Virus record (IMG/VR): IMGVR_UViG_3300028581_000002
Span: 1-51,834 of that record
DNA from: a virus
Length of the DNA: 51,834 nucleotides
Reading direction: 5' to 3' (one strand)
Position 1 is the stretch's first letter. Each line of letters begins with the position of its first letter. Below the pieces are notes generated by a model. It was not told the origin of the DNA. It made no database searches and worked only from the letters and a program-made list of their open reading frames with translations. Shown here in pieces: positions 1-51,834 of this stretch. Made by a program: the position numbers and the translations under genes.

Positions 1-127
1 CCATCCAGATTGAAGTGCCTCTCTCAAAGTATCAAAGAGTTGGGTTAAAGTTTTGACTTTAGTGGCTGCATCGTTTGCCATCTGACCAAGCTTAATTATC
101 TCATCGATTTGTTTCTTTGTGTACCCC
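1..127. repeat. 127-bp exact repeat, left copy (circular closure)
   Basis: These 127 bases are identical to 51708..51834. The reading frame of the tape-measure gene passes through the junction without a break, so the contig is a closed circle or a circularly permuted genome. A length of 127 is a common assembler k-mer size, so the duplication is more likely an assembly overlap than a biological terminal repeat. Confidence 0.95.
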
Positions 128-2734: not shown

Positions 2735-3697
2735 TTAATTTTGTATTTGTAATGTTCCTATGCTTCCAGTCTCAGTTAGAGCCCTAAATTTAAGTTTAGT
2801 CACAACTGTAGGAACGACTCCTTCATTTTCGTACGTACGTTCATCGTAAAACGCAATCGATAATCTATCAGACTCAAACGTTATAGGTAATGTCCTATAC
2901 TCTGTAGCTACTGGTAATTTACCCGTAAGATCTTCATTGTCTAATAGTATCGAATATCTTGATAAGGATATTAATGGTTGTAGTAGCTGTATTCTAAATT
3001 CACATGAAATGCCAACTATAAGATCTTCTATTGAATACGTAGCAACAAAAGACAGCATACTAGTAACTTCATTAGGGAGTGGTAATCTTGCTGGGGTTAC
3101 GTCTGTCCCATATAAAATATCCTCAAGATATGCTAATTTCACTGGATTTATTTTAGTAGAATCGATAGTTATAGACGCTGTAGGTTTGAACCCTGTGGCT
3201 AATACGGGAGTTGTTGATGCCTCCCAGGAATATGTTAATGCATCAGGCGAATCATTAACAGAACTATAACCTGTTTCTGATGGGGCAACTATTGCTCCGT
3301 AGATAAGATGCAACTTATACCCATGCTCTCCGCCATTAACATCATTGCCGATGGATGTTCTATAACACAGCCCGAATGGTTTTCTTTTCTGTTGTTTTAT
3401 TGTTACACCTGGGGTCATTAATCTTGTTCCATCGCAAACCCCAAATTCTTCTGGGTAGGAATATGCCTCAATCGTCAAACCAAGTTCCTCGACAGATAAT
3501 AAGTTTAGATATTTAATATCGTTTGCATACAAGGGACTTGCTTCTGCACCGGAAGGACTTTCGGTTATCGCTGTTAAACCATTCCACGCAACGCCTATAG
3601 GGTAATCGCCACTAATATCCTGAGGATATAGAACTCCCTGACGTATGCCGGTCTCATATAATTTCTTACCTGATTCTCCCCAAACAAGTTTTGGCAT
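2735..3697 (-). CDS. Second major tail tube protein paralogue, C-terminally extended
   Basis: 320 residues. The first roughly 215 residues are closely similar to the major tail protein at 5533..6189: both start MPKL.W.E.GK..YETG.RQG and share AWNGL.A.TESPSGAEA, KYLNL and QKRK/H-x-FGLCYRT. About 100 extra C-terminal residues (from LSFVATYSIEDLIVG) are absent from the short copy. It probably forms part of the tail tube or a specialised end or surface-decorated subunit. It is separated from the first copy by the two tail chaperones and an amidase, suggesting duplication followed by acquisition of a domain. The start has a strong AAGGAGG site. Confidence 0.8.
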   Translation of the reverse strand: MPKLVWGESGKKLYETGIRQGVLYPQDISGDYPIGVAWNGLTAITESPSGAEASPLYANDIKYLNLLSVEELGLTIEAYSYPEEFGVCDGTRLMTPGVTIKQQKRKPFGLCYRTSIGNDVNGGEHGYKLHLIYGAIVAPSETGYSSVNDSPDALTYSWEASTTPVLATGFKPTASITIDSTKINPVKLAYLEDILYGTDVTPARLPLPNEVTSMLSFVATYSIEDLIVGISCEFRIQLLQPLISLSRYSILLDNEDLTGKLPVATEYRTLPITFESDRLSIAFYDERTYENEGVVPTVVTKLKFRALTETGSIGTLQIQN

Positions 3698-5532: not shown

Positions 5533-6189
5533 TCAACCTTCAGCGAATAAGTCCGCAATTTCTGCAGGAAGAGGTAATCTTGCTGGCGCGGTTTCTGTAC
5601 CATAAAGAATACCTTCAAGATCTGCAAGTTTAACTGCATCAACTTTTGTCGAGTCGATTGTTAGAGAAGCAGTTGGTTTGAAGCCTGGAACTGATACTGG
5701 AGTTGTTGTGATTTCCCAGCTAAATGTAATAGCGTCTGGGCTATCGTTAATCGAACTATAACCTTTCTCAGATGGAGCAGCCATCGCGCCATAGATAAGG
5801 TGTAGTTTATAACCATAATCACCTTCCTCAAGGTCGTTACCAAGAACAGTTCTGTAGCATAAGCCAAAGGCGTGTCTCTTTTGTTGACCAATAACAACAC
5901 CTGTAGCAAGTTCAGCAGAACCATCACACACCGCAAATTCGTCAGGGTATGTGTAAGCGTCAAGTGTTGCTCCTAATTCCTCAATAGAAACTAGGTTAAG
6001 ATACTTGATGTCATCGGCATAAATTGGGTTAGCTTCTGCACCAGAAGGACTCTCTGTTACTGCTTGCAAACCGTTCCATGCAACACCAAGAGGATAAGCA
6101 CCATTGGCGTCCTGAGGATACAGAACACCTTGACGTGTGCCAGTTTCATAAAATCTTTTTCCTGTTTCATCCCAAATAAGTTTAGGCAT
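5533..6189 (-). CDS. Major tail (tube) protein
   Basis: 218 residues, starting MPKLIWDETGKRFYETG. Its position after the connector genes and before the tail chaperones, its size, and its strong AAGGAGG site identify it as the tail-tube protein. The core contains AWNGLQAVTESPSGAEA, KRHAFGLCYRT, GYKLHLIYGA and TFSWEITTTPV, typical of phi13/TP901-like tube proteins in gut Firmicutes phages. A paralogue with an added C-terminal region is encoded at 2735..3697. A strong hairpin follows its stop codon. Confidence 0.87.
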   Translation of the reverse strand: MPKLIWDETGKRFYETGTRQGVLYPQDANGAYPLGVAWNGLQAVTESPSGAEANPIYADDIKYLNLVSIEELGATLDAYTYPDEFAVCDGSAELATGVVIGQQKRHAFGLCYRTVLGNDLEEGDYGYKLHLIYGAMAAPSEKGYSSINDSPDAITFSWEITTTPVSVPGFKPTASLTIDSTKVDAVKLADLEGILYGTETAPARLPLPAEIADLFAEG

Positions 6190-16685: not shown

Positions 16686-19370
16686 CTAAGTTAATGCTTT
16701 TGATAATCCAGCGGTTGAGATGCCTAAAGCTTCTGCGACTTCTGCTTGTGTGTAGCCTAAGTCAAGCATGGATCGTGCACGAGTGACACGAGCTTTAGCA
16801 ATAGATGTTGTAGTTCTAGGTGTAGCCAACTCTTTAACTCTATCAAGATTAGTGTTCTGTAGAATCTGAGTTAATCTTGATGGACTAACAGCACCTGCTT
16901 GAATAGCGGCCCATTCTTTATCTGAGATCTCAACTTGATTCTTATGCGCTCCTGTGCGTGTTCTTGCTTCTGCTAATGCTTGGTTACGTACCTTCTTAAG
17001 ATCATCGGCATCCATGTTAGGATTGGCTTGAAGCTTCCTATTAACAACAGATGTAGCAAGAATCTGTGCTTGTCTCTCAATTGGTTTGTTCATAAGCGCA
17101 ATGTTTAAGTGAGCTGTTAGAGTGGCAACTTCTGTCTCATAAGCCTTCTTTGCGGATGGGCTATATGGGGTTGGTATTGTGGATAATGCATTAGCTCTTG
17201 ATTTATTACCAAGACCCTTTAAATTATTAGCATAAGCGGCATATACCTCTTCTATGGGGCGGCCTGATGATAGTTCAAAGGCGTCAGATACTTCTGCCAT
17301 CTTTGTAGATTTATTCTTCTTCTCTATCAATGTGCCTTTTTTATTTACATACGACACCCCGGTAGGAGTATAAACTTTCTCACCAGTAATGCGGTCTATT
17401 GGTCCACCATCTTTAGCGCTTCTTGGTTTTCTGTCTAAGACTCTCTTCTCAGAAGATGCTTTAGATACTAGAGTAGATGCGCCACCACGTTTACCATTTT
17501 GATATCTTTCACTTAGAGCAGCTATCCCATGATCAATATATGATCGCCTATAATCAAGGTTATGCTTCTCTGAGTCTATTACAACCATTGAATGCCTAAC
17601 AGCCCTAGCGAGCTCGTCAATAGTGGCACCTTTAATGGTCATATCTGTAATTAGATTAGAGGCTTCTCCCATTTTGGTTTGCTTAGTTTTTGGTTTGATA
17701 GGTGGTATATTGGAACCTTCTGGAATACGGTATAATTCAATAGGATCAAAGTTTTCAAGACCTTTAAGTGATGCAGAAGTCTTTATATATCCTCTATTGT
17801 TTGGTATAACTATGACGGCATCTCCATCGAAGTCTGCTCCAGACATTTTTTGAGCAACCTTTGGATGAATACCAATGGCATCCGGAGCATTACCCATAAC
17901 ATCTTTTGCCGATTTGTTCTTATTGTTTACTATTAATTGGGGTATTTCAAAAGTTCCTCCATGAGGATGACGAATAAGAACTACGGCTTCTCCATCTTTA
18001 TATGTCGGTGCATAAACCTCATTCATTTTAAGCCCTGGAATAGGAAGAAGAACTTTAGATGCTTGTCTCGGTAAGGCTGCGGCTTTAAGATGAACTGCAG
18101 ATGAATCGCAATCATCAGAAAATGCAAGAAGAAGTTGTTTTTTAACAACAGGATTTGTGAGTGCCATGATTTCATCATATTCTTCTTGTTTGTGTTTCAA
18201 AGCCAAATCGAGTTGAGTTTTTGCTAATGGCACTGTTTGTTTTGAAAGTATTTGAGACGAGATCGTTTTAGACCAATGCTCCCAATCACCCTCTTCATTA
18301 ACAATATTAATAGAGCCTCTCTGTCCTCCTGGTTTTATAGTTGCGCCAAAAGGATTATCCGGATCAATTATTTTTTTACCAGTATCATCAGGAACTTCTT
18401 TCATTTTTTTCATAGCATCAAGCTTGTTACCCGTATCCGATTTATTAGTGTTAAATATAACATCAACACCTTTTGGCATGTTATCACTATAAATAGCCAT
18501 TCCTTTTAGGAAATGAGTACCATCAACACCAATACGAACTTGAGCATATTTAGCTCCACCAAGATCTAGATCTTCGACGCCTTTGCGAAGCTCCATAACC
18601 CCATCTTTATCGCTACCACCATCTTTGGCATAGCGAACCATGATTCTTTTTGAATCAACGCTCTGTATTGGTTTTAAACCTAAATCTGAATGATAAGATC
18701 TACCAAAGTCATCAGAAGAAGCAGTAATGCTCTTTATTTTATCAAAATCTCCAGGTTTAACTATATCTTTCCACTCTGTATCTGGTGTACCTAAAACTTT
18801 AACTATCGTAAACTGCCCAGGTATACCTATTTGCGGAACGTTTACCTTATGCACCTTATATCCTTGCTCTTGTAATTCGGCAACAGCAGTGTTTAACTTA
18901 GTAGGACTTACTCCAAGGTGATTGGCAACGCCAGCACCAATATCTATAAATCTTTTTTCATCAACACTTTCTTTCAGCATACTAGCTGTGGCTTTTGTAA
19001 TTGCCGCTCTCTCAGCAAGGATTGGGTCTATGAGACTTCTTACAGAGGATTCATTCCATGTTTTATTTGGAGAGCTCATGCGACGAGCAATTTCCATATT
19101 AGAATATCCCTTATCTTTATATCTCATAGCCACTGTTCTATTTTCTGCTCTACCATCATCTTTAGTTATAGAGTTTCTTGCTCTCAGTTGACTTGTCTTT
19201 ATTCCTTCAAATTTAGCAATTTCTGTAGCGCTTAATCCTTGATCACGGAGTGCTTGAATATGACCACGCCAACCTACAGCTCTTTGATATGGTTCCCCGC
19301 CACTTCCCCAAGGGTAACGCCCAGAACGGCGAGCCATTCCATAATGTTTTAATTCATCGCTCATGAACAT
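16686..19370 (-). CDS. Single-chain two-barrel RNA polymerase-like protein with HTH segments
   Basis: 894 residues. Residues 512-517 read ADFDGD, the metal-binding signature of the beta' barrel of cellular RNA polymerase; the flank matches too (VVLIRHPHGG upstream, then IGIHPKVAQKMSGADFDGDA). Residues about 272-307 resemble the beta-subunit barrel: a lysine-containing FLKGMA (Lys289) followed by DNMPKGVDVIFN, like beta 'KGV...DMP...VDIILN'. Beta-like before beta'-like in one chain is the plan of YonO-type phage RNA polymerases. Helix-turn-helix-like segments occur near 35-65 (LSATEIAKFEGIKTSQLR), 85-113 and the extreme C-terminus (YTQAEVAEALGISTAGLSK). The N-terminus LKHYGMARRSGRYPWGSG recalls the KWG motif of head proteins. 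Start is ATG 19370 or 19364. Polymerase activity is inferred. Confidence 0.8.
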   Translation of the reverse strand: MFMSDELKHYGMARRSGRYPWGSGGEPYQRAVGWRGHIQALRDQGLSATEIAKFEGIKTSQLRARNSITKDDGRAENRTVAMRYKDKGYSNMEIARRMSSPNKTWNESSVRSLIDPILAERAAITKATASMLKESVDEKRFIDIGAGVANHLGVSPTKLNTAVAELQEQGYKVHKVNVPQIGIPGQFTIVKVLGTPDTEWKDIVKPGDFDKIKSITASSDDFGRSYHSDLGLKPIQSVDSKRIMVRYAKDGGSDKDGVMELRKGVEDLDLGGAKYAQVRIGVDGTHFLKGMAIYSDNMPKGVDVIFNTNKSDTGNKLDAMKKMKEVPDDTGKKIIDPDNPFGATIKPGGQRGSINIVNEEGDWEHWSKTISSQILSKQTVPLAKTQLDLALKHKQEEYDEIMALTNPVVKKQLLLAFSDDCDSSAVHLKAAALPRQASKVLLPIPGLKMNEVYAPTYKDGEAVVLIRHPHGGTFEIPQLIVNNKNKSAKDVMGNAPDAIGIHPKVAQKMSGADFDGDAVIVIPNNRGYIKTSASLKGLENFDPIELYRIPEGSNIPPIKPKTKQTKMGEASNLITDMTIKGATIDELARAVRHSMVVIDSEKHNLDYRRSYIDHGIAALSERYQNGKRGGASTLVSKASSEKRVLDRKPRSAKDGGPIDRITGEKVYTPTGVSYVNKKGTLIEKKNKSTKMAEVSDAFELSSGRPIEEVYAAYANNLKGLGNKSRANALSTIPTPYSPSAKKAYETEVATLTAHLNIALMNKPIERQAQILATSVVNRKLQANPNMDADDLKKVRNQALAEARTRTGAHKNQVEISDKEWAAIQAGAVSPSRLTQILQNTNLDRVKELATPRTTTSIAKARVTRARSMLDLGYTQAEVAEALGISTAGLSKALT

Positions 19371-19925
19371 TTACCCCCTTGTTTTTAATTGTTCAATCTT
19401 CTTATCAAAATCAATTATAGTATCCATAATGTTAAATATTTCTTCTGGTTCAGGAATATAAATAAAAGCCTCATCATACTGATATATACGAAGTTCTATA
19501 TCAATGTCAATAGGTTTAATTTTATACTCTAAACAGAATATAGCGGTATAAACTAAGAGTTGTTTGATGGACGCCTGGGTATCTCCATTTTTTAAATCAT
19601 GAATTCGAAGAATATTTTTTCTAAAAGATATGGCATCTGCTGTTCCAAAACAGTTATCCGAATAATATAAAATTTGCTCACATTTCATCTTATAACCTAT
19701 AGCATCATTTACATATAGGTTTAGAGTTTTATTTGTTTTTGGCAGTTTAACGCCAAGATTTATAAGTCTACAAGCAAGGTCATGGAGATCTGTGCCTCTT
19801 TGAATTGCTCTAAATTTGGAATAAGTTGAAAATAATTTTTCTTCATCATAATTAATCCAATGGTATTTGCTAGCGCTCAGAAAAGCATGATGCCCTTCTA
19901 GGCCTAAATGTGTGTTGAAGTTCAT
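19371..19925 (-). CDS. PD-(D/E)XK nuclease, Cas4/RecB-like
   Basis: 184 residues. FGTADAISF followed about a dozen residues later by RIHDLKNG, then IKQLLVYTAIF, gives the GxxD...(D/E)xK...Q pattern of RecB/Cas4-type nucleases. An upstream RGTDLHDLA supplies a helical acidic element. It overlaps the preceding VRR-type nuclease gene by 56 bases, and its stop touches the start of the RNA polymerase-like gene, so all three are likely co-translated. Probable role: DNA end processing in replication or recombination. Confidence 0.72.
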   Translation of the reverse strand: MNFNTHLGLEGHHAFLSASKYHWINYDEEKLFSTYSKFRAIQRGTDLHDLACRLINLGVKLPKTNKTLNLYVNDAIGYKMKCEQILYYSDNCFGTADAISFRKNILRIHDLKNGDTQASIKQLLVYTAIFCLEYKIKPIDIDIELRIYQYDEAFIYIPEPEEIFNIMDTIIDFDKKIEQLKTRG

Positions 19926-20270: not shown

Positions 20271-21494
20271 TTAGGCAGCCATAAAACGATACTCATTAAA
20301 ATCTTTTTTATTATTAAACGCTTTCTGTATCGCCAAGTCGATGTATGATGTTGATCTAAGATAATAATAAAACAAATCAACAAACGGGGTATTTAATCTA
20401 TCAATACGACCAGCGGCTTGGGTTGTGGATTTATATGAGTAATTTTGAGAGAAGAATATTATAGCATTAGTTTCTATGCAGTTCCATCCCTCTGCTCCTG
20501 CGGTATACTGGACAATATATATCCATTGATCTGTGTCCGGTATAGGTTCATGTCTATGACCGTTCCATTGTTTTGTTGTGATTCCTAAATCTTCACCCAA
20601 CTTTAATAATAAATCCCTTTCATAATTAAAATTATAGAATATGATAACCTTTGGGTGTTTACTAACAAGTTCTGTTATTGCTTTGAGTCTGCTTGGATCA
20701 CTATTAACTACTTTTCTCATTGTGTAGCAAAGTTCACCAACATCTTTAATGGGCCTCTCTTCATAGATGTGCCATCTTTTGATTAGCACTTTCTCAAACA
20801 GTTCTCTATCAAATTCTACAGGAACATTCTTATCATGAGCAATGGTTCTTTTCTTATAACTCATATTAACAATAACTGCTTCTCGAAGTTTAATAAGTCT
20901 GCCCACATCCACATAATGATCGATCTTAGGATATTTAGAGAAGTTGTTATATACAACGTGGCGTCTAATAAATTCAGTTCTATTTTTATACCAGCCATTA
21001 GCTATGAATACAGGAATATAATCCATCCATGTGTCTCCTGGAGTGGCACTTAACAAAATCCATTCGTTGTTCTGTGTAGCTTTTATAAATGATTTAACCC
21101 ATGTTCCATTACCTACTACACGCTGCTCATCAAAAATAAAGAACGCATTTTTAACATTAGCATATTTACTTATGTTATTCCATGAATCAACAAAGACGCC
21201 AACGCCGCCAATACTAAGTTCCCTTTTTGTTGATAAAAGAAAGGGTATACATTCTTTCTCCCAATCTAAGGTGTCACGTTTTCTAGCTGTGGTTATGATA
21301 TATAAATCCTTCGGTCTTTTCATAGGCGAATATCCACCTACTTCATTGGTTTTTATTTTCCCTTCACAGACTTTGGTAAAATAGTAGGCGAGAGCAGTTC
21401 GAGATTTTCCAGAGCCGACTCCGCCTACTAGTATATTTCCATTATCTATTTTTTCAACAGCATCTCGCTGATGTTCATATAAATCGATTGCCAT
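20271..21494 (-). CDS. SF2 (SNF2-like) DNA helicase/ATPase
   Basis: 407 residues. Starts with a Q-motif-like YEHQRDAVEKI, then Walker A GGVGSGKS (24-31), a DEQR motif II, LLSATP motif III, and GAEGWNC ... QAAGRIDR (motifs V-VI). This is a complete SF2 helicase core at the compact size usual in Firmicutes phages. It lies between the ssDNA-binding candidate and the nucleases, suggesting work in replication or recombination. A strong GGAGGTGA site precedes the ATG, though spacing is long. Confidence 0.9.
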   Translation of the reverse strand: MAIDLYEHQRDAVEKIDNGNILVGGVGSGKSRTALAYYFTKVCEGKIKTNEVGGYSPMKRPKDLYIITTARKRDTLDWEKECIPFLLSTKRELSIGGVGVFVDSWNNISKYANVKNAFFIFDEQRVVGNGTWVKSFIKATQNNEWILLSATPGDTWMDYIPVFIANGWYKNRTEFIRRHVVYNNFSKYPKIDHYVDVGRLIKLREAVIVNMSYKKRTIAHDKNVPVEFDRELFEKVLIKRWHIYEERPIKDVGELCYTMRKVVNSDPSRLKAITELVSKHPKVIIFYNFNYERDLLLKLGEDLGITTKQWNGHRHEPIPDTDQWIYIVQYTAGAEGWNCIETNAIIFFSQNYSYKSTTQAAGRIDRLNTPFVDLFYYYLRSTSYIDLAIQKAFNNKKDFNEYRFMAA

Positions 21495-21554: not shown

Positions 21555-22082
21555 TTATTCGTCGTGTGACTTACAACTACCATCGCAAGCATCGCAGTTC
21601 AGACAACCGCCTATGGTCTCTACTGCACTATCTGGAATATCTCTATATTTGCGCTCAAACTCATCCTCTGCAATGACAACATACATTGACTTCACATAGG
21701 CCTTTACTCCGCTCTTTCCACTAACTTCCCAATTATACGGACGAAGTATAAGATCAACCTCTTCTATTTCAGCCCAATCCAAAAGGGATACAGACTCATC
21801 ATCAAGAATTGATTTGCCTCTGCTTGTCATGATTATTATTTTTGGAGGTACATTTTCAAAACTAACAGATACTTGCATATATGCTTGTGGATCATCTTGA
21901 TCGTCTTTTGGCTCTAACCATCTAACGTTCCATCCATCGTTTATCAGTTGTTCTGCTAACTCGCCTTCTAAGAACACGCAGAAATTACGTCTTCCTGCAG
22001 GGTTAAACTTACCCTCTTTTCCACTAAAATTACGAAACGCTATATGCGCATTTTCAATTGATATATTACTTTTTACTATCAT
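21555..22082 (-). CDS. Probable single-stranded DNA-binding protein
   Basis: About 175 residues. GGAGA selects ATG 22082 (MIVKSNISIENAHIAFRNF). The text 'FSGKEGKFNPAGRRNFCVFL', 'WNVRWLEP' and 'VDLILRPYNWEVSGKSGVKAYVKSMYV' matches a family common beside phage polymerases and helicases, where an OB-like ssDNA-binding role is proposed. The C-terminus has a cysteine cluster (CLNCDACDGSC) that may bind a metal, and an acidic tip (KSHDE) like ssDNA-binding protein tails. Role inferred from family memory and position. Confidence 0.65.
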   Translation of the reverse strand: MIVKSNISIENAHIAFRNFSGKEGKFNPAGRRNFCVFLEGELAEQLINDGWNVRWLEPKDDQDDPQAYMQVSVSFENVPPKIIIMTSRGKSILDDESVSLLDWAEIEEVDLILRPYNWEVSGKSGVKAYVKSMYVVIAEDEFERKYRDIPDSAVETIGGCLNCDACDGSCKSHDE

Positions 22083-22103
22083 TTGTATTTCTCCTCTCAA
22101 TTT

Positions 22104-25100
22104 TTAAAATGGTAGTGCATCATATCCAGCTTTACATTCCATTCCAGTCTCTGCGCTAATACTCCAATCGGGACACCCAAGACAATCGTTTCTTCCACAA
22201 GCCATCACCCATGGGGGAGTGTCATTAAATCCAATTGGTTCATCTTTTGAGTCATTCTTTATAGTATCCGATATAAACCACTCGAAGTCTCCATATTTAG
22301 AAATGTCTTCAACCGCGGCATCAACCATGTTATTATAATAGTCTAAATCTAATTCCTCTTTTTTCTCAAGTTCAATTATCATCTCTGCTTCCAACCATCT
22401 ATATCCTTTGCTACCCGTTGCTGCGTAGTACTTACCCTCTTTTTCTCTCATAAGAAGTCCGCCACCACAACCAGGTCTAACTGGACAGAATGCTCCAACC
22501 CTACCAATGAAATGATAGTCATGATTTTCCGAGGTTTCATTCATGTCAAGATATAAAGCTGAAGTTACCGATTTTACTTCTAACATATCCTCAAATTCAA
22601 TTGGTTCATGAGAGAATAGTGTTTTGAATACGTATGGTTGCGCGAACTGCGCCCCTGTAGCTGTCCATTCTCCAATATGTTTTCCATCTGGGGTCCATCC
22701 AACTTTTGCAATGTATACCGCATCGTTAACTAGACAGAATCGGCTATATGTCTCTTCATGTTCGAAATCATAACCATATTCCTTTCCAAAGTTCATGACA
22801 AATTGTATTATTTCAGGGGTTGCATCTGGAATTTTGATAGAGTCGGTCTTAATGTGAACAACATCAAACCCTTGGTTATTTACCGCCTCTTTCAAGTCGA
22901 CCATAAACAAAGCACCACGTTTAGCAACAACATTGTCTATATTTCTAGGATCCTTAAACGGATTTTCGAAACTAGCCGATGTTAATCCATATGCAGAGTT
23001 AAGCGCAGTCTTCAATCCATTAGATACATCTTTCAATGTAAATCTCGGATTATCACTAAGAGCATTTTCTATAAAAGGTATTAGACGTCCATTTAATAAA
23101 GTTTTCAATGTATCAAAGTCTTTACGTTTGATCGCTAGGCGACCAGCCTTTAGATCGCTGTAGTTCTTAGTATAGCGGCCAAACATTTGTTCTGCTTCAA
23201 TGGTTGTTGGATGCATAGACGCGACGTCAAGCACGGCAACATTAGAATACATACCGGGTTTGGCAAATACATATCCACCCTCGCCAGTCTTTACTCCACG
23301 ATATGTACTAACCCCATTTTCAAATTTATAACCAATAAATCGTTTACTTAAGTCTGGATAATTGAAACTAGATTGGGGCTTCTTATCATTACCAAACACT
23401 ATCTTGATAGAATGTTGATTGGTTGTATCATTTACGGATAGTCCACTCAACTCTGCTAAGATTTGTCTTGCGGCCCAGTCGCCTGCTAAATGATCAAATG
23501 TGGCTTCTGTCGCGTCAACATCGTTTCCGCAATAATCTGCAACTGTACCCCATAACGCTTCGGGTACATCTTCGTCCCATGGAAGACCTAATTCTTGATG
23601 ATGAATTCCAAGTTTTATCTCCCATTTTTTTAGGCCCATTTTATTTTGCACACAAGCAAAGTCGTATACGTCGGTGTAAGAAATATTGTATGCTTCACCA
23701 AACATACAGTTACGACTTCCTTTTATTATCTTTTGACTAAGCTCATATAACTGTTTGTTATCGTACCCTATATATCGGGCATACAGTATATGATTATCAT
23801 ACCTACGACAATTGAAACCTATTAACTTTAATTTAAAAAGCTCCTCAATCTCACTTGCCGATGGATTAATCATCTTAACTTTATTACCGCCTTTTTTTTT
23901 CCATACAACAACAAACAAATTTGGGAAAACCTCAACATCATAGAATATAAGGTCTTCATTTTTAACATCATCAACAGATGCACTGCTCTCGTCAGATGTA
24001 AATTGCATTTTACTTACCAACTTAATACAGTAATCTGCTTGATGAGAGGAATTGTTTGCGAATGCTAATACTCTAGGACGCATATCTTTAACATCATATG
24101 GCATCCCTGATATATAAGCTTCATCTAGTATTTTATAAATGAAGTCTATACTTGGTTTGGTGCCTGGGTGAATTTCTTTTCTAAGATTTCGAGAAATAAT
24201 ATCTCTTAATCCCTTCTCACTTTTAACAGCTTCGAAGTTGATCACGCTCTTATCTCCTTTCAAAGGCAAGCCACTACTTATTGTGGCTATTGGTGAATTG
24301 TTGCATTTGGATAGTCTCCTCCTCAAAGATGCTTGCCCAACAAATACTTTAATTTCAATACCTTCTGAATATACTCTACTAAGTTTGCGAGCATCGCCGT
24401 CATAATTATAATGAAGATGAATCCCCGCTCCACTTTTACTAAACTCGGCATATGTAGTTGGCCATTTACTTGCGGCTTCAAGATTTAACTGCATGGACTT
24501 TTCACCACTAATATCTTTTAAATCAAAATCAATGACTATATGATTTAATGGCGGTTTAACATAATGAGTTTCCCTAGTGTTGATATCGGACAGAGTTGTA
24601 GTAGTCTCATCCCATTTACCCTTAGGCGTTTCTTTTGCCGTAGCATACTGCGCAGGGCAATCGGTTAACTCCTCGTCAAGTATCGAATTTGGATCGTCAA
24701 GCACTAGTGAATATGGCGTTTCCTCTTTTGGTGTTTCTGATATAGCAAACTTCTCAGAAAGGAAACCCATATAATAACTACGGATCTGCTTACCATCGAC
24801 TCTTGTCATGTCAAGAAACTTCTCAAAATATGACTTAAGTTCTTCCCTAAATTTATGGCGAGGCATTTTAAACTCAATAAGAGCTTCGTCGCAATAAGCT
24901 TTATATATTTCATATGCTTGGGCTAGACTTACTCCATCTTGTTCTTTGAATATATGATAGTTTGCCTCAACAAAGTTAAAGAATACATCTGTTTGAAATA
25001 TCATCTCTAATGGGCGATAACCGGCATAATAATTTTTACCTTTTTCTTGATATACTTGAAGACAGTGCCAAGCAATAGAGCCCAATTCAAAATCTATCTG

Positions 25101-26036
25101 ACTAATTAAAGTGTGATATCTCTTTGTTGGTATCTTATTATTGCTTGGTCTGACATCTATAAGTCTTCTTATAATTCCGGATTTAGCATCAGTTATCTTA
25201 ACTGGTTTGTTTGTACCCATAAATAGAAACGCATTTGATCGTGCCATATATGCTGGTTTAAATTTTTCATGCATTGTCATTTCTTCATGAGATATTATTG
25301 AGTTTAGTTTTGTATTATCCTCTATTCTTGAAAGGTCTCCATCATGTTGAATTGCAACTAATGGGTTGCCTCTAAAAACTTCTGTGGAAAATACATTACT
25401 GGCGCTTGTTAAAGCCTTTGCCTCGAACGTTGTATAGTATCCTTGAAAGAGACTTTGGATAATGTTAAGAATGGTAGATTTGCCTGTACCAGCTTCTCCG
25501 TACAAGACAATAAATTTTTGAATGTTCTTTGCGTCTCCTGAGATGATAGCTCCGATAGCCCATTCGAGTTTTGTCCTTTCTTCTGGTTCATACAAGGTTC
25601 CGATGAGTTCGTCATACGCATCTATTTTTCCTTCCTTCAAAGAATATGGTAATCTGTGACTAACATAATCGCTTTTTTTTACTTCAGTATTTGCAAATGC
25701 AATATGATCGTCCAATTGATGTGAATTATCAGACATCTCTCTAATAAAAGCTCTATAGTTCTTCCACATATTTGAAGACATACTTATCATTCGTTTTATT
25801 TCTATAGGGCCTGAGAAAGCTTTCTGCCTTTCACTTTTGTATTCATTTAGTTCTTCATCAACTAATCGCTGAACATCATACTCGTCGGTTGACCACATTT
25901 GTTTGTTGTTATCCCATATCGCATAAAATGATCTCCCGCGAATCATCAAATCTTTAGATCGACAAGCTTTGAAGTCGGGATATATTTGAAGAGTTCCTTT
26001 TTTGCTCGTTTCTTCTGTGATGTGATAGAAATCCAC
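22104..26036 (-). CDS. Helicase-primase-family B DNA polymerase fusion
   Basis: 1310 residues in one uninterrupted frame; GTG start after AAAGGAGG. Residues 150-350 are a D5/SF3-like helicase (Walker A GEAGTGKS at 180-187; FMGTNKPV at 272-279; GIIRRLIDV). Residues 498-600 resemble an archaeo-eukaryotic primase: IDFDL (502-506), SGAGIHLHY (535-543) and GIEIKVF. Residues 698-850 hold the 3'-5' exonuclease (YDVEVF with Asp700/Glu702; FNCRRYDNH; YCGND with Asp839). The polymerase has motif A DVASMHP (Asp937), motif B LKTALNSAYG (1008-1017) and motif C HIKTDSIKI (Asp1065). Motif C has KTDS where most family B enzymes have DTDS; the essential second Asp is kept. The C-terminus is cysteine-rich (CGRNDCLGCPDW). 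Together this is most of a replisome in one chain. Confidence 0.9.
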   Translation of the reverse strand: MDFYHITEETSKKGTLQIYPDFKACRSKDLMIRGRSFYAIWDNNKQMWSTDEYDVQRLVDEELNEYKSERQKAFSGPIEIKRMISMSSNMWKNYRAFIREMSDNSHQLDDHIAFANTEVKKSDYVSHRLPYSLKEGKIDAYDELIGTLYEPEERTKLEWAIGAIISGDAKNIQKFIVLYGEAGTGKSTILNIIQSLFQGYYTTFEAKALTSASNVFSTEVFRGNPLVAIQHDGDLSRIEDNTKLNSIISHEEMTMHEKFKPAYMARSNAFLFMGTNKPVKITDAKSGIIRRLIDVRPSNNKIPTKRYHTLISQIDFELGSIAWHCLQVYQEKGKNYYAGYRPLEMIFQTDVFFNFVEANYHIFKEQDGVSLAQAYEIYKAYCDEALIEFKMPRHKFREELKSYFEKFLDMTRVDGKQIRSYYMGFLSEKFAISETPKEETPYSLVLDDPNSILDEELTDCPAQYATAKETPKGKWDETTTTLSDINTRETHYVKPPLNHIVIDFDLKDISGEKSMQLNLEAASKWPTTYAEFSKSGAGIHLHYNYDGDARKLSRVYSEGIEIKVFVGQASLRRRLSKCNNSPIATISSGLPLKGDKSVINFEAVKSEKGLRDIISRNLRKEIHPGTKPSIDFIYKILDEAYISGMPYDVKDMRPRVLAFANNSSHQADYCIKLVSKMQFTSDESSASVDDVKNEDLIFYDVEVFPNLFVVVWKKKGGNKVKMINPSASEIEELFKLKLIGFNCRRYDNHILYARYIGYDNKQLYELSQKIIKGSRNCMFGEAYNISYTDVYDFACVQNKMGLKKWEIKLGIHHQELGLPWDEDVPEALWGTVADYCGNDVDATEATFDHLAGDWAARQILAELSGLSVNDTTNQHSIKIVFGNDKKPQSSFNYPDLSKRFIGYKFENGVSTYRGVKTGEGGYVFAKPGMYSNVAVLDVASMHPTTIEAEQMFGRYTKNYSDLKAGRLAIKRKDFDTLKTLLNGRLIPFIENALSDNPRFTLKDVSNGLKTALNSAYGLTSASFENPFKDPRNIDNVVAKRGALFMVDLKEAVNNQGFDVVHIKTDSIKIPDATPEIIQFVMNFGKEYGYDFEHEETYSRFCLVNDAVYIAKVGWTPDGKHIGEWTATGAQFAQPYVFKTLFSHEPIEFEDMLEVKSVTSALYLDMNETSENHDYHFIGRVGAFCPVRPGCGGGLLMREKEGKYYAATGSKGYRWLEAEMIIELEKKEELDLDYYNNMVDAAVEDISKYGDFEWFISDTIKNDSKDEPIGFNDTPPWVMACGRNDCLGCPDWSISAETGMECKAGYDALPF

Positions 26037-26293
26037 GGGCGTCCTCCTTTCACGTACTTTTTGTCGGTTTGTTACATGTTACACTTTTTTTTACAGTAGA
26101 GCTCTATATATACTCTTTTTTCTCATACTAATATAAGAGAATAAATGTAACAATGTAACAAAATAGTCAAAATGGCCCAAAACACCCGTTTTTTTAGCGT
26201 TTTTTGGCATTTTTCTGTTACGTTTCCGTATTTAAAAGTGTAACAATGTTACGAAAAAGTGTAACAATGGGCCTTTTTTGATATAAATTCTGT
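26037..26293. promoter_or_regulatory. TGTAACA repeat region upstream of the polymerase (candidate origin or operator)
   Basis: This 257-base gap has no gene. AAAAGTGTAACAATG occurs twice, at 26234..26248 and 26255..26269, exactly 21 bases apart. Related words occur at 26146..26160 (TGTAACAATGTAACA), 26071..26084 (GTTACATGTTACAC) and 26216..26222. Between them lies a very AT-rich tract with T-runs. Phased repeats plus an AT-rich stretch directly before the replication gene fit an origin or an autoregulatory operator. Confidence 0.6.
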
Positions 26294-28052: not shown

Positions 28053-28994
28053 TTAGATGAGATCGTTAATAACACCATCAACATTGAAGTCAAGTAATAT
28101 ATTGCGTTCGTTGCCGTTGACAAATGCTCTAGCGCGTTCTCTATCTCCGTCAAATATACCGAAATCTATGAAACTATCACCCTCGCCAAACACCCAACCA
28201 ACAACCGACCCTGGTTTAGTTCTTGGAATACCAAGTGCATCATATACCTCGTTTAGGAACACGTGCCCACGAACCTTAAGCATCTCATTATGGTAACTTT
28301 GTTGACTTCTTAGGAACATTAGATTATATTCCGCGTTCTTAGACCATTGAGTACATGACTCATCATAAAATCTAGCATACAAACTTGGTACGCCTGGATC
28401 TTTAATCATGTTTGTTTTCTTAACTTTACGTACTTTCCCGTCTTCATCAACTTCATTTTCTGTAACAACTTCGCTTCGTAGACCGTTTTTATACATGTAG
28501 TCTGCTTGCTCGCCATGTTCCTCTACAACACGTTTACGATATGCATTAAAACTTTCTTCAACAGCCTTATAAGCAGCCATAAGTGCAACGTTACGTGTTT
28601 TCATGATACCGTGTGCGCCAATAATACAAGCAATAGACGCTATACCAAGCGTAATGGCTGGACCGTAAAGCTTAACAAATTCAACACTTGTCTGTACATA
28701 TGTTACTGTTAAATCTTTTCTATGATCATTTTCGGAATATTCGTCAAGAGAAATATCTCCCTCTTTAACCTTTTCCCAACAATCGTTAATTTTTTCAGCT
28801 TTCGCTTTGTGGTTGTCAAGAACCTCTTCAACTTTAAGAGTTGCACGACAAGCCAATACAGCGGATACAACTGTCCCAGCTACACCAACCACTAATAAGA
28901 TTTCAGGACTGTTTTTTTGCATTACTAGACCGGTACGGCCAGTAATTTTAGAAAGATCTTTCGTTACATTACTCAATACATTTGCTATTTTCAT
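28053..28994 (-). CDS. DUF6353-like membrane protein, copy 1
   Basis: 313 residues. Two hydrophobic helices (about 29-50, ILLVVGVAGTVVSAVLAC; about 110-130, AITLGIASIACIIGAHGIM) flank a short charged loop; a long soluble C-terminal domain follows, with EVYDALGIPRTKPG and GWVFGEGDSFIDFG. A second protein with the same plan is encoded at 37860..38663, sharing the KNSPEI/QNSPTI start. This family is common in gut phages and has no known function. The start has GGGGAC at good spacing. Confidence 0.75.
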   Translation of the reverse strand: MKIANVLSNVTKDLSKITGRTGLVMQKNSPEILLVVGVAGTVVSAVLACRATLKVEEVLDNHKAKAEKINDCWEKVKEGDISLDEYSENDHRKDLTVTYVQTSVEFVKLYGPAITLGIASIACIIGAHGIMKTRNVALMAAYKAVEESFNAYRKRVVEEHGEQADYMYKNGLRSEVVTENEVDEDGKVRKVKKTNMIKDPGVPSLYARFYDESCTQWSKNAEYNLMFLRSQQSYHNEMLKVRGHVFLNEVYDALGIPRTKPGSVVGWVFGEGDSFIDFGIFDGDRERARAFVNGNERNILLDFNVDGVINDLI

Positions 28995-37859: not shown

Positions 37860-38663
37860 CTATTTCATAAATTTTGGCACGACCTCATAATTCAGAACTA
37901 TGCAAGGTTCGCCCTCTTCTGTAAGTTGAGTGCTAAAAGATATTTCAACTAATCCTTTGTCAAGATCCCAGCCCATTTGATCACCAAGTTTATTTCCTGC
38001 CAATCCAAGCCCATAATATAACTCATTCACAGTCATGAATCCGTCTGTCATTAATGAATGATTAAGATCATTTACAACACGTCTTATTTGCTCAATATCA
38101 TTCTTGAAATATCGTCCGGATAAGCTATCATAACATGTCACACTGCCCTTGCCTGTGAATATAATCTCGTTCTTACTAGCTGGATCCCTTTTTACACGAT
38201 CAGCAGAAATATCATCCCTGACCTTTAATTCTTTATTCTTACCAATAGTCTCGACTACCTTATGCTTGTATTCTTTGAATGCCGCTTCTGTTATACCATA
38301 TAAGCTAGCTAAGGCAGCGTTACGTCGTAATGATATTTGATTAGCACTAATGATACATGCTATGGTTACTGCTCCCATCGTCACTGTAGGAATATAACAC
38401 TTCCAGGTCAACTTCACAATTTCCATCTTCGTCAAATCAGGCAATATCATATCTGGTAGACTATCGTTGTAATATCCTCGATCATCTAACTCCTGGTCCA
38501 TAATTGATAAAGCCCTCGGCGTTGCCTTAACTGCAAATATAACCGTCCCTAAAAGTCCAGCAACAGCAATCCCGGTGAGAATTGTCGGACTATTTTGGGA
38601 AATTACACCCCCGAGGTTTTTTGCCGCTTGAGTTAATCCATTTCCTTCACTAAAACTCTTCAT
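37860..38663 (-). CDS. DUF6353-like membrane protein, copy 2
   Basis: 267 residues, paralogue of 28053..28994. Two helices (about 27-49, LTGIAVAGLLGTVIFAVKA; about 92-110, TVTMGAVTIACIISAN) and a soluble end with TVNELYYGLGLAG and GWDLDKG. AAGGGAG supports ATG 38663. It lies downstream of the tRNA-like RNA and its promoter, with tiny leader frames between. Function unknown. Confidence 0.75.
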   Translation of the reverse strand: MKSFSEGNGLTQAAKNLGGVISQNSPTILTGIAVAGLLGTVIFAVKATPRALSIMDQELDDRGYYNDSLPDMILPDLTKMEIVKLTWKCYIPTVTMGAVTIACIISANQISLRRNAALASLYGITEAAFKEYKHKVVETIGKNKELKVRDDISADRVKRDPASKNEIIFTGKGSVTCYDSLSGRYFKNDIEQIRRVVNDLNHSLMTDGFMTVNELYYGLGLAGNKLGDQMGWDLDKGLVEISFSTQLTEEGEPCIVLNYEVVPKFMK

Positions 38664-39141: not shown

Positions 39142-40389
39142 CTATCTGCCAGCACAATTGTAGCAATACAACTTCCTTGTTTTCTCGTTTTCCACGACTG
39201 TGGTTTCTTCACCACAAAATGGACATTTACGTGGATACTGTTCTGTGTTAGATCTTGTTAGATTCTCTTTAACTTCTGGAACTATTTTGTTCGCTTTGAA
39301 TACATCTAACTTATCACCAACTCCAACCATCAGGTCCTCAAATATCTTTAATGAGTGTAAATTTGCTTGTTTGACAATAGTTCCCTCAAGTGCTAACGGT
39401 TCAAACAATACTACAGGTGTAATCAATCCTGTTGCGCTTACACTCCATTTCATGCCGGTTACAGTGGTTAATGCTGATATATCCGGCCATTTAAACGCCA
39501 TACTATGCTTGGGGAACTTAGCCGTAGTACCTAATGAGTTGCCATATTCTATATCATTAAGAGATAACACAAGACCATCCACAGGGAACTCGAAATTCTC
39601 AACCCCGTCCGTATAATGCTGTATTTGGTGTTTTAATTCAAAATTCAACACTTTAGAATATGGTACAACATTGAATCCAAAATCCCTTAAATGCTCTAGT
39701 TCTTCACTTCTCTGTGTAGTATGCCAAGGTAATCCTTGGAGTAATACAACAGAATGAGCAACAAAAGATATATGTCTTAATAAGATAGACGTCGTTTTAC
39801 TAGCGTTTATAAGTCCTGCTACCATGTTACGAGGATTACTGAATCTTTCACCTTCTTGAGTCTTCTTAATTTGAGCAAACTCACTGATCGATAGACAACC
39901 TTCCCCACGGACAATTACTTCGCCCTTCATAGACTTCATATTTATGGTTTTTGGTACATTACGCATGAGTATAACATTCTTAGTAATGTCCTTACCATAA
40001 TGACCATCTCCGCGACTTACAGCTCTTTGTAATATACCGTCTAAGTAATATAATACAATGGACATACCATCGAGCTTCCATGATAATATACCTTCTCGTT
40101 CGCCTAGGAAATATAGCAAATCATCTATATTTTTGGTATCCTTTAGCGAAAGAATAGACATATAATGCCTTATCTTACCATCTTGAAGCTCTTCAAATCC
40201 AACTTTTGTTGTCGGCGACTCATATAGGGTTACGCCCGTATCTTCTTCCAGGCTTGATAGTTCAGATAAGAACCTATCGTATTGTCTATCAGTAATAGGC
40301 GATTCGTCTTCACCGGAATAATACTTACTCCTAGCATCGTATAGAATATCAATTAAATCCGCCATACGCGCTTCCTTATTAAGATCCAT
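39142..40389 (-). CDS. ligA: NAD-dependent DNA ligase, shortened
   Basis: About 415 residues from ATG 40389 (MDLNKEARMADLIDILYDAR), chosen by AAAGGAGA. The Ia domain (ARSKYYSGEDESPITDRQYD) is followed by the nucleotidyltransferase with the adenylated lysine in KLDG (105-108), the OB fold (GMKWSVSATGLITPVVLFEP) and the four-cysteine zinc finger (CPFCGE...LYCYNC). The HhH and BRCT domains of the cellular enzyme are absent, as in other compact phage ligases. It seals nicks during phage replication using NAD+. Confidence 0.94.
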   Translation of the reverse strand: MDLNKEARMADLIDILYDARSKYYSGEDESPITDRQYDRFLSELSSLEEDTGVTLYESPTTKVGFEELQDGKIRHYMSILSLKDTKNIDDLLYFLGEREGILSWKLDGMSIVLYYLDGILQRAVSRGDGHYGKDITKNVILMRNVPKTINMKSMKGEVIVRGEGCLSISEFAQIKKTQEGERFSNPRNMVAGLINASKTTSILLRHISFVAHSVVLLQGLPWHTTQRSEELEHLRDFGFNVVPYSKVLNFELKHQIQHYTDGVENFEFPVDGLVLSLNDIEYGNSLGTTAKFPKHSMAFKWPDISALTTVTGMKWSVSATGLITPVVLFEPLALEGTIVKQANLHSLKIFEDLMVGVGDKLDVFKANKIVPEVKENLTRSNTEQYPRKCPFCGEETTVVENEKTRKLYCYNCAGR

Positions 40390-40431
40390 GATAATTTCTC
40401 CTTTCAAGAAAAATATAAAACTGCTTTGTAA

Positions 40432-49900: not shown

Positions 49901-51834
49901 TTGTAAGTTTCATGAACAAGACCAATTCTGCTAAAACAACACCTACCCCAATTAAACCCTTTTTAAGAACTTCGAAATCCAGTTTGCCTAATTCCTTAAC
50001 TGCGTTCGTAAGAATCACTATTGATGTGGCAAAGAGAATCAAGCCTACAGATCCTTTTACCATCTTAGCCGAGTTCTTTTCAAGTACCATCGATACCGCA
50101 ACTAATTCGGCCATTAATATGCCGATAGCTGTGAGTCCCTTGGCTATTTGATTCCAATCGAGCTCAGAAAGGTTTTTCATAGCGAACGAAAGGAGAAGTA
50201 CGGCCGTAGATAGACCTATCATTGCAAGTGATACTCTACCCATTGATTTGAATCCCTTATCGCCGGCAATCTTTTCAAATATGGCCATCGAACCAAATAG
50301 TTCAACGAACATTATAGTTATCGCAGCAAGAGATGAAGTCAATTTTACAGGATCTATGGTTGACAGTACAAGTAGGCTAAGTGCCAATATGCCAATAGCC
50401 CCGGCAATCTTTAGCAAGGTATTTGCTTTGAGATCGTTCTGAAATGCTGTAAGGCTACCCTTAACCCCATCTAAGAGAGCCCTTATCCCGCCAATCCAAC
50501 CTGGTCCATTTTTAGCTAGATTACTAAATGTAACCATCAACTTTTTAAGACCTAAAAGGAGAGCCGCAATTAATCCACCGTTAAGAACATCAAGCATAGA
50601 ATCAAATCCAAGATCATCTAAGGATTTACCTATGGCATTCTTTAATGAAGTGAAAGCTTTTCCTATCATTCCTGCAACGAACACCAACCCATCAAATAAA
50701 TGTAGGTCAACATTGCCAAGTCCGGAAAATGCTTGTCCTATGGCTGTTGCTGAATTTCTAACAACATCGGCAACAAATTTCATTGCGTTTGCTACCCCAT
50801 TAAATGCTAATCCAAAGAAATTAGTTTTCTTTACAACATCATCTAAATATGTAAGAAAGTTACCAATAGAAGACGTCACATCAAGAAGACCAGTGCCAAG
50901 AGGACTGAAATATGAGATAAGATTAATCACGCCAGAGACAAATCCTTTGATGACTTGTATCCCTATATCGACAACAGCAAAAACGCCCTTGAATGTGGAT
51001 TTTAGTTTAGCCGCTGTTTCGTCTCCTATTTTGAAGTTAGCGGTGAACTCTTTGATTCTCTCTGTTAGAGCGTATAATTGTTCACCAGTTGCAGGAGGGA
51101 AGATCTCAGAAAATGCTTCTTTTACTGGTTTAACAACGCTCATAAGACCTTCGAACGCATTCCTAAGAGCTTGTATTATATTTTCACGACCAGAACTAAT
51201 CAGCATCTTGTCCCTAAACTCGCTAAGAGATATTGTGCCTTCTTTAACACCCTTATCAAGCGCTTCCAATGCCGCAATCTGATCCTTAGTGTATCCAAGA
51301 TCTTTTAATTTATCGGCAGAGAGACCTCTTGTCTTACCAGCAAGGTCACTTAATGCTTTACCTAGATCATCCGAAGTAATTACACCACTTTTTAACACGT
51401 TCGTAAAAGCTTGTCTATCGTCTATCGTCTTTCCATCAGCTATAGCAAGGAGTTTCTGAGCCTCTATCATTTGATCTAGACTCTTACCATGTGCTTTAGT
51501 GATTTTATTGATAGATTCTTTATAGCCTTCCTCGTCGGGAATACCCTGGTTTAGAAGTTGATTCCATCCACTGGATAATCCAGACGATAGGACTGCATTA
51601 CGAGCCTTGGAAGATTGATTGATCATTCCACCAAAGATATCACTTATTTCTGTGAATAGTTCTTTTGCTTCGCCAAAGTCGCCAACTATAATTCTCCAAC
51701 TTTGAGCCCATCCAGATTGAAGTGCCTCTCTCAAAGTATCAAAGAGTTGGGTTAAAGTTTTGACTTTAGTGGCTGCATCGTTTGCCATCTGACCAAGCTT
51801 AATTATCTCATCGATTTGTTTCTTTGTGTACCCC
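46959..51834 (-). CDS. Tape measure protein, main and C-terminal part
   Basis: This is the rest of the roughly 1911-residue tape measure begun at 987. A long, very hydrophobic central block repeats a unit of about 60 residues at least five times; each carries a version of 'lg-x-MDWEKLKLGL-x-x-G' followed by a membrane-like helix. Towards the C-terminus a segment of about 80 residues starting 'ELWNAQN..TAS' is followed by a second copy starting 'YQLWNAQN.STAS', a tandem duplication. The size, repeats, hydrophobic centre and the Dit gene immediately downstream (TAATG overlap at 46957..46961) fit a siphovirus tape measure. Long plus-strand open frames over it are shadows. Confidence 0.93.
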   Translation of the reverse strand, partial: GYTKKQIDEIIKLGQMANDAATKVKTLTQLFDTLREALQSGWAQSWRIIVGDFGEAKELFTEISDIFGGMINQSSKARNAVLSSGLSSGWNQLLNQGIPDEEGYKESINKITKAHGKSLDQMIEAQKLLAIADGKTIDDRQAFTNVLKSGVITSDDLGKALSDLAGKTRGLSADKLKDLGYTKDQIAALEALDKGVKEGTISLSEFRDKMLISSGRENIIQALRNAFEGLMSVVKPVKEAFSEIFPPATGEQLYALTERIKEFTANFKIGDETAAKLKSTFKGVFAVVDIGIQVIKGFVSGVINLISYFSPLGTGLLDVTSSIGNFLTYLDDVVKKTNFFGLAFNGVANAMKFVADVVRNSATAIGQAFSGLGNVDLHLFDGLVFVAGMIGKAFTSLKNAIGKSLDDLGFDSMLDVLNGGLIAALLLGLKKLMVTFSNLAKNGPGWIGGIRALLDGVKGSLTAFQNDLKANTLLKIAGAIGILALSLLVLSTIDPVKLTSSLAAITIMFVELFGSMAIFEKIAGDKGFKSMGRVSLAMIGLSTAVLLLSFAMKNLSELDWNQIAKGLTAIGILMAELVAVSMVLEKNSAKMVKGSVGLILFATSIVILTNAVKELGKLDFEVLKKGLIGVGVVLAELVLFMKLTNTDKMGVTKGLGIIALAAAINIMAIAVSTLGNMDTEKLKQGLLAIGMVLAELVLFIQLTGNPANVISTAIGMTILSSAMIILAKAVSAFGDMDWEKLKLGLKGMGGALLIIVAAMWALPPNMIGSAAALLIVSTALVVLSNAMQNLGGMDWEQMKLGLIGLAGSLTIIAVAMAFMTTALPGAAALLIVSAALMLLTPVLIALGAMSLTSIGTGLLALAGAFAVIGVSALILAPLTPVILALAAAIAIIGVGCLAAGAGLLALSAGLAAIAVSGVAGGAAIIAIVKALLDLIPVLLAKIGEGIVAFAKVITDGAPAIANAIGAVLLAFMQVIVTSIPAIVNTILVLLGALLDAIVKFVPKLVDAGMKILIGFLKGISDNIQQVVETAISIVVNILKGIANKLPDVIQAGVDLIISFIDGLAAAVTNNKDRAITSMNNLIGALLDAAVSVLTNPITGILSIGKQIITGLIQGLGMNVADVTKSAQDVGSNILNAIKSFFRIKSPSRLMRDEVGNYIVQGIAEGITKDMSAEEAATKKAQNIMSAFKDALDKIDLSSSTTAVENELWNAQNRDTASESEKFDKNISKISKDIEGQKKKVEIADAKYNTMRTKFGGDNNDTKQAYKDFVSEQSALAQLSNKLTDTRKEESERIAKVKEDFIRNMEETSDLEYQLWNAQNGSTASDLEKSSRELALLTKKLNAQQEKQNIAANDYNTKLNTLGKCNSEVTNAYKTFLQEQVATSALLGQYQEANKANADKLNTARINYYNYLTKNNKMLLDMGISQAEIDEAARKDSGYNPDSTIAQTMKTNVEGAVTDAMTTVTTVYEQKADQTFVGLVSSFGEYGKSYAESLGTGFLNAFDVVMDSIKTALDSLESELQNRLNNLSSEMNRVSVANGGSNISPIIDLTSASARAKTISASTSTNKAQSIAKTKSTTDKTSQNGSTSTAAEKSIVFQQYNNSPKALDRIDIYRQTQRLLAGRTT
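51708..51834. repeat. 127-bp exact repeat, right copy (circular closure)
   Basis: Exact copy of 1..127. It should be counted once in the genome. Confidence 0.95.

Follow-up and report, generated by a model that had tools for sequence, protein, structure and literature searches.

Can a single phage protein hold the helicase, primase, exonuclease and DNA polymerase for copying a genome, and what would such a protein do in its own phage? The question is raised by one gene in the virus record IMGVR_UViG_3300028581_000002 of IMG/VR, of which all 51,834 bases (G+C 0.376) were analysed; this whole stretch is called the window here. The gene is an uninterrupted frame of 1310 codons on the minus strand (26036..22104) with a GTG start and no internal stops. 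The opposite (plus) strand over 22104-26036 has many stop codons. By its sequence, the product is very probably the phage-encoded replicase, a protein of the HelPrimPolB group related like an orthologue to GP55 of Lactococcus phage 1706. A preliminary description of the window had reported the 1310-residue frame and a set of motifs. The frame was confirmed, and its strand, which had been left unstated, is the minus strand.

Domain assignment and comparison with GP55

GP55 has been described as a "four-in-one replicase" with helicase, RNA primase, 3'-5' exonuclease and polymerase activity (PMC12205980, 2025; statements on GP55 follow the available part of that article). BLASTP aligned the window protein with GP55 end to end, with 496 of 1316 positions identical (38%) and 841 bits over window residues 1-1250. 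In GP55, helicase activity was lost in the K189 mutant, exonuclease activity in D712/E714 mutants and polymerase activity in the D949 mutant, while mutation of D509, Y655 or F667 abolished primase activity; the helical domain (aHD) is required for priming (PMC12205980). The residues K189, D509, D712, E714, D949, Y655 and F667 correspond to K186, D505, D700, E702, D937, Y647 and F659 of the window protein.

The domain order from the N to the C terminus is superfamily 3 (SF3) helicase, archaeo-eukaryotic primase (AEP, PriS-like), a small all-helical domain, 3'-5' exonuclease and family B polymerase (Table 1). The succession of helicase, primase, exonuclease and polymerase B in the preliminary description is thus borne out by motifs, families and predicted folds. 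All the motifs it named are present: Walker A GEAGTGKST (K186), DFD (D503, D505), GIHLHY (H540), ExoI DVE (D700, E702), ExoII, ExoIII, motif A (D937), motif B and KTDS (1063-1066).

For the helicase, PF19263 scores 50.5 bits against a cutoff of 27.6 (residues 178-291); TIGR01613 (P4 primase C-terminal) scores 54.8, below its cutoff of 108.7. Walker A (K186), Walker B (D232/D234), the sensor Asn (N276) and the arginine finger (R290/R291) are those of an SF3 helicase of the D5/P4 kind. The N-terminal 150 residues have a weak PDB-sequence match to "Gp29.2" (E 0.0016, or 0.026 with the whole chain).

The hDhD motif (D503/D505), an SxH-like motif (H540) and the third acidic motif (E561) lie on a predicted AEP fold. 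The AlphaFold model of the primase region was built from 65 sequences and has a mean pLDDT (predicted local distance difference test) of 89.4. Its residues 449-595 match NrS-1 prim-pol (Foldseek E 3e-5; VIA-align Z 9.9 over 141 residues at 3.6 Å) and ORF904 (Z 6.8). An AEP match of the region 500-600, on which the preliminary description had made its primase call depend, was therefore found at the level of the predicted fold. A fold search with the helical domain (residues 600-683) returned only unrelated helical proteins with Z of 5.6 or less, a result that excludes nothing.

The exonuclease and polymerase parts were modelled together (residues 696-1250; 42 sequences, mean pLDDT 89.7). The 72 non-redundant relatives contributed 64 sequences to the primase model and 41 to this one. 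The model matches family B polymerases with a Foldseek E of 3.4e-16 and a best Z of 16.7, and an E. coli Pol II profile matches residues 917-1067. Exo I-III and motifs A, B and C are present with their catalytic acids, except that motif C starts with Lys where Asp is usual, a substitution shared with GP55.

Conservation of catalytic residues and the divergent motif C

Of 534 relatives, 80 were sampled. A 93-row alignment was made from the window protein, 83 IMG/VR loci whose frame reaches 1200 aa or more and nine named phages; four of the 87 IMG/VR loci were omitted as shorter. Invariant in all 93 rows are K186, N276, R290, R291, D503, D505, H540 and E561 in the helicase and primase, and D700, E702, N742, D747, Y835, D839, D937, K1009 and Y1016 in the exonuclease and polymerase. 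Walker B D232 is Asp in 91 rows and Glu in two, and S535 is Ser in 84 and Gly in nine. At the positions equivalent to the GP55 aHD residues, Y647 is Tyr in 83 rows and Phe in ten, and F659 is Phe in 92 and Arg in one.

Motif C reads KTDS instead of DTDS, as noted before, and this is a trait of the whole family: K1063-T-D-S is kept in 93/93 rows, GP55 included. One could argue that a polymerase with Lys in place of the first Asp is catalytically decayed, given that motif C holds a pair of aspartates in the majority of family B enzymes (PMC7544198, available part). A decayed motif would not stay invariant as K-T-D-S, and GP55 with the same KTDS extends primers at 1.25 nM enzyme (PMC12205980). 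Decay is therefore rejected as very improbable, and KTDS is a family signature.

The seven mapped functional residues and KTDS are kept across relatives from soil, freshwater and named actinophages. GP55 can thereby be taken as representative, and its biochemistry can be carried over to these relatives.

Integrity of the reading frame

Residues 1-1263 are covered by the family phrog_4210 ("DNA polymerase") at 1977 bits; the family also matches GP55 residues 1-1312. A tblastn search found matches in 361 of 50,697 phage records, and in 252 of these one place covers at least 80% of the query. Most of them are actinophages annotated "DNA primase/polymerase", including Arthrobacter, Gordonia and Streptomyces phages. 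Enterococcus matches, among the matches listed, cover the polymerase part only (27-29% of the query).

The preliminary description had allowed for the frame being an assembly join. An assembly chimera or a fusion by sequencing error has nothing in its favour except the unusual length, and its probability is negligible: the frame runs for at least 1200 aa without interruption in 83 of 87 IMG/VR loci, and in many named isolate genomes a single tblastn piece spans 96% of the query. Independent full-length relatives in hundreds of phages refute the doubt. In the four shorter loci (L007, 878 aa; L009, 579 aa; L054, 1178 aa; L098, 1196 aa) each match reaches or nears the locus end.

A natural two-piece form of the same replicase is found in Bifidobacterium phage BitterVaud1 (L013 3986-8616), where the chain is split immediately before motif A into 959 and 368 aa. 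Between the two halves lies an unrelated gene of 213 aa, which belongs to no known family. A homing endonuclease, intein or intron was considered for this insert and rejected, as it has no Pfam or PHROG family, no Rfam intron and no match in another phage record.

Proposed function

The domain order of GP55, its catalytic residues and the same folds for the primase and polymerase parts were all observed here. The window protein is accordingly expected, from this likeness, to have the activities of GP55 and to replicate the DNA of this phage. Because it is homologous to GP55, the division of labour can be carried over. Duplex opening and strand displacement would fall to the SF3 helicase at the N terminus. 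In the centre of the chain, the PriS-like domain and the helical domain that follows it would make a short RNA primer, with loose demands on the site. The family B polymerase at the C terminus would then elongate the primer with proofreading. An SSB-like neighbour (single-stranded DNA-binding protein, SSB), a helicase, an exonuclease and a ligase may round out a small phage-coded replication set.

Several points weigh against this assignment. Identity to GP55 is only 38%. In GP55 unwinding depends on UTP/dTTP and the preferred priming site is 5'-CCAAC-3' (PMC12205980); neither property need carry over. The structure models cover the primase/helical and exonuclease/polymerase parts, and the helicase was assigned from PF19263 and motifs. 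When the primase alignment was compared with a single-sequence AEP by hhalign, the probability was only 44.7% (E 0.00022), and a PDB-sequence profile search with the same alignment found no AEP. The best match in that search, a bacteriocin immunity protein (E 0.62), is at chance level and was discarded. From the sequence profile by itself the AEP call would be weak. Since these profile searches were weak or empty, the call is based on the fold and the motifs together with the homology to GP55.

A different role was also considered, in which the enzyme serves recombination-dependent or repair synthesis and leaves the copying of the phage genome to DnaB and Pol III of the host. The gene does adjoin a protein of single-strand annealing type and an exonuclease, and GP55 carries out de novo synthesis on single-stranded DNA without need for its helicase domain (PMC12205980). 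We regard this role as unlikely. No other DNA polymerase or primase was called among the 38 window open reading frames (ORFs) scanned with PHROGs, and the GP55 authors argue likewise for phage 1706, in which SSB is the only other replication gene (PMC12205980). Replication of the phage genome by its own replicase is preferred.

Genome context

An exact direct repeat of 127 bp is found at both contig ends (window 1-127 and 51708-51834). With this terminal repeat, the contig probably represents the whole genome of one phage, assembled as a circle. Terminase, portal, head protease, tail and tape measure genes flank the replication region in the same record. Coordinates of the replicase, its domains and the replication-related genes are given in Table 1.

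Table 1. Features of the replicase gene and of replication-related genes in the window.
Feature	Coordinates	Strand	Evidence
Whole replicase gene, HelPrimPolB type, 1310 aa, GTG start	22104..26036	-	frame reading, phrog_4210, BLASTP to GP55
Shine-Dalgarno-like AAAGGAGG, 6 nt 5' of the replicase GTG	26043..26050	-	sequence read directly
SF3-type helicase domain, residues ~150-425	24762..25589	-	PF19263 above cutoff at 178-291; motif conservation
Predicted AEP/PriS-like primase domain, residues 449-595 (D503, D505, H540, E561)	24252..24692	-	AlphaFold model and structure search, conservation
Helical domain, GP55 aHD equivalent, residues ~600-683 (Y647, F659)	23988..24239	-	model helices; columns map to GP55 Y655/F667
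3'-5' exonuclease domain, residues ~696-888 (D700, E702, N742/D747, Y835/D839)	23373..23951	-	conservation, phrog_1252 at 678-888, model
Family B polymerase domain, residues ~917-1250 (D937, K1009, Y1016, D1065)	22287..23288	-	Pol II profile, fold search, conservation
Motif C, KTDS replacing DTDS, residues 1063-1066	22839..22850	-	93/93 rows
Variable C-terminal tail, residues 1258-1310, four cysteines (1280, 1285, 1288, 1301), terminal ...DALPF	22107..22265	-	sequence and relatives
Next gene after the replicase: phage single-stranded DNA-binding/annealing protein (SSB-like), Cys-rich end	21555..22100	-	PF24083, phrog_4787, sequence
Separate DEAD-type helicase, replication region	20271..21494	-	phrog_62; weak Helicase_C and DEAD
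Exonuclease-family gene, replication region	19371..19925	-	phrog_3953
NAD-dependent DNA ligase	39142..40407	-	PF01653, PF03120, phrog_3869

Three further observations were made on the window. An 894-aa protein (16686-19370, minus strand) matches phrog_4291 ("RNA-dependent RNA polymerase") and contains MSGADFDGD, which we take to be the metal-binding signature of two-barrel RNA polymerases; it is probably a single-chain phage RNA polymerase. Two paralogous genes (28053-28994 and 37860-38663, minus strand) belong to phrog_2152, a family of unknown function. The major tail protein family phrog_2645 is matched by two genes (2735-3697 and 5533-6189, minus strand).

The C-terminal tail and its Pro-Phe tip

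After residue ~1250 the replicase is strongly variable among relatives, and the tail was counted in the 92 rows with a complete C terminus. At least three tail cysteines are present in 25 rows, and the pattern C-x(2-14)-C-x2-C-x(2-16)-C also fits 25. The four-cysteine cluster is probably a metal-binding knuckle. PF, or PF plus one residue, ends 27 rows, whereas 2000 shufflings of each tail gave 1.2 such rows on average and never more than 6. A FastTree tree from which the tail columns had been excluded requires 16 or more changes of state for the tip and 11 or more for the cysteine trait; it does not separate gain from loss. With so many changes, the Pro-Phe tip is not one inherited accident. 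The seven residues before PF hold on average 1.83 acidic residues over 23 distinct tips versus 0.93 over 122 internal PF sites; none of 20,000 resamples was as high, in rows that are related.

The IMG/VR loci also contain 762 other ORFs that are codirectional and reach 100 aa or more; seven of these end in [LIVMQWY]PF. All seven are SSB-like genes, equated by locus, length and ending. The SSB-like gene in other loci ends with an acidic ...EELPF tip. In the window the replicase ends in ...DALPF, and the SSB-like protein (21555-22100) has no tip and four Cys in its last 45 residues. The two proteins tend to carry four-cysteine clusters together (both in 8 pairs, the replicase alone in 16, SSB alone in 1, neither in 63), with a Fisher p of 8e-5 that is too small, the rows being related. 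A rule that the tip is on the replicase or on SSB but never on both was tried and rejected: the 88 pairs divide into 18 replicase only, 10 SSB only, 9 both and 51 neither.

In E. coli, SSB uses its tip, DDDIPF, to dock a large number of partners (PMC5872125, available part). We consider it possible, if on balance doubtful, that part of the family carries an SSB-like docking tip (acidic, ...LPF or ...IPF), often behind the four-cysteine knuckle, and that replicase and SSB compete for or jointly hold one partner. Such a partner might come from the host, as an SSB-binding protein, or from the phage, as its helicase or a pocket on the replicase, and the tips might act as a hand-off device in a one-protein replisome. 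A sliding-clamp peptide is another candidate reading of the tip. A precedent would be T7, whose SSB and helicase both end in acidic tails with Phe; the literature search found no direct paper on it. Against a docking tail common to replicase and SSB stand three results. The linkage of tips between the two proteins is not significant (Fisher p 0.09, 88 pairs). The window tip GYDALPF has one acidic residue in the seven before PF, so that its likeness to SSB is weaker than that of ...DEEYLPF or ...DADEELPFN in relatives. In 65 of the 92 rows there is no such tip, and these rows include GP55 and every one of the nine named phages. If true, a docking tail would indicate how a self-contained replicase plugs into SSB traffic. 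No description of a variable C-terminal tail was found in the literature searched, and the words "tail", "cystein" and "zinc" are absent from the available text of PMC12205980.

Comparison with known systems

The closest assayed system is GP55 (Fremauxvirus). It resembles the window protein in the four-domain order, length (1317 vs 1310 aa), catalytic residues, KTDS and the helical domain behind the primase, and differs in having neither the four-cysteine tail nor the Pro-Phe end; host group and neighbour genes also differ. The primase and polymerase of GP55 cooperate in trans, the protein forms a dimer, and its homologues number more than 1000 by the authors' count (PMC12205980). Even closer in sequence are the actinophage "DNA primase/polymerase" proteins such as Arthrobacter phage Mudcat gp58 and Gordonia phage Petito gp64 (56-58% identity over the whole chain). 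Their tails differ: the five aligned actinophage rows have neither a cysteine cluster nor a Pro-Phe end. The NrS-1 and ORF904 prim-pols share the AEP catalytic fold (Z 9.9 and 6.8). In their full-length chains, presumably, the helicase follows the primase and there is no family B polymerase.

Eggerthella phage EL753P1 (L021 1492-5851) has an AEP-D5_N-SF3 gene (785 aa), then a separate family B polymerase (665 aa). These unfused genes, with primase before helicase, are possibly a picture of the parts prior to fusion and reordering. The preliminary description had called the helicase-first order reversed. That is fair with respect to EL753P1, but the same order defines a published group. HelPrimPolB, named by Kazlauskas in 2020, denotes family B polymerases that carry an SF3 helicase and a PrimPol domain fused to the N terminus, which is the arrangement of the window protein; the group is further described by a divergent motif C and a KxY motif (PMC7544198, available part) and is placed in the EpsilonN-like clade of family B. 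The rarity claimed for the architecture did not hold, as it is annotated in many actinophages, has had a name since 2020 and was assayed with GP55 in 2025. The four-domain architecture is already known, and the window protein adds a further divergent example.

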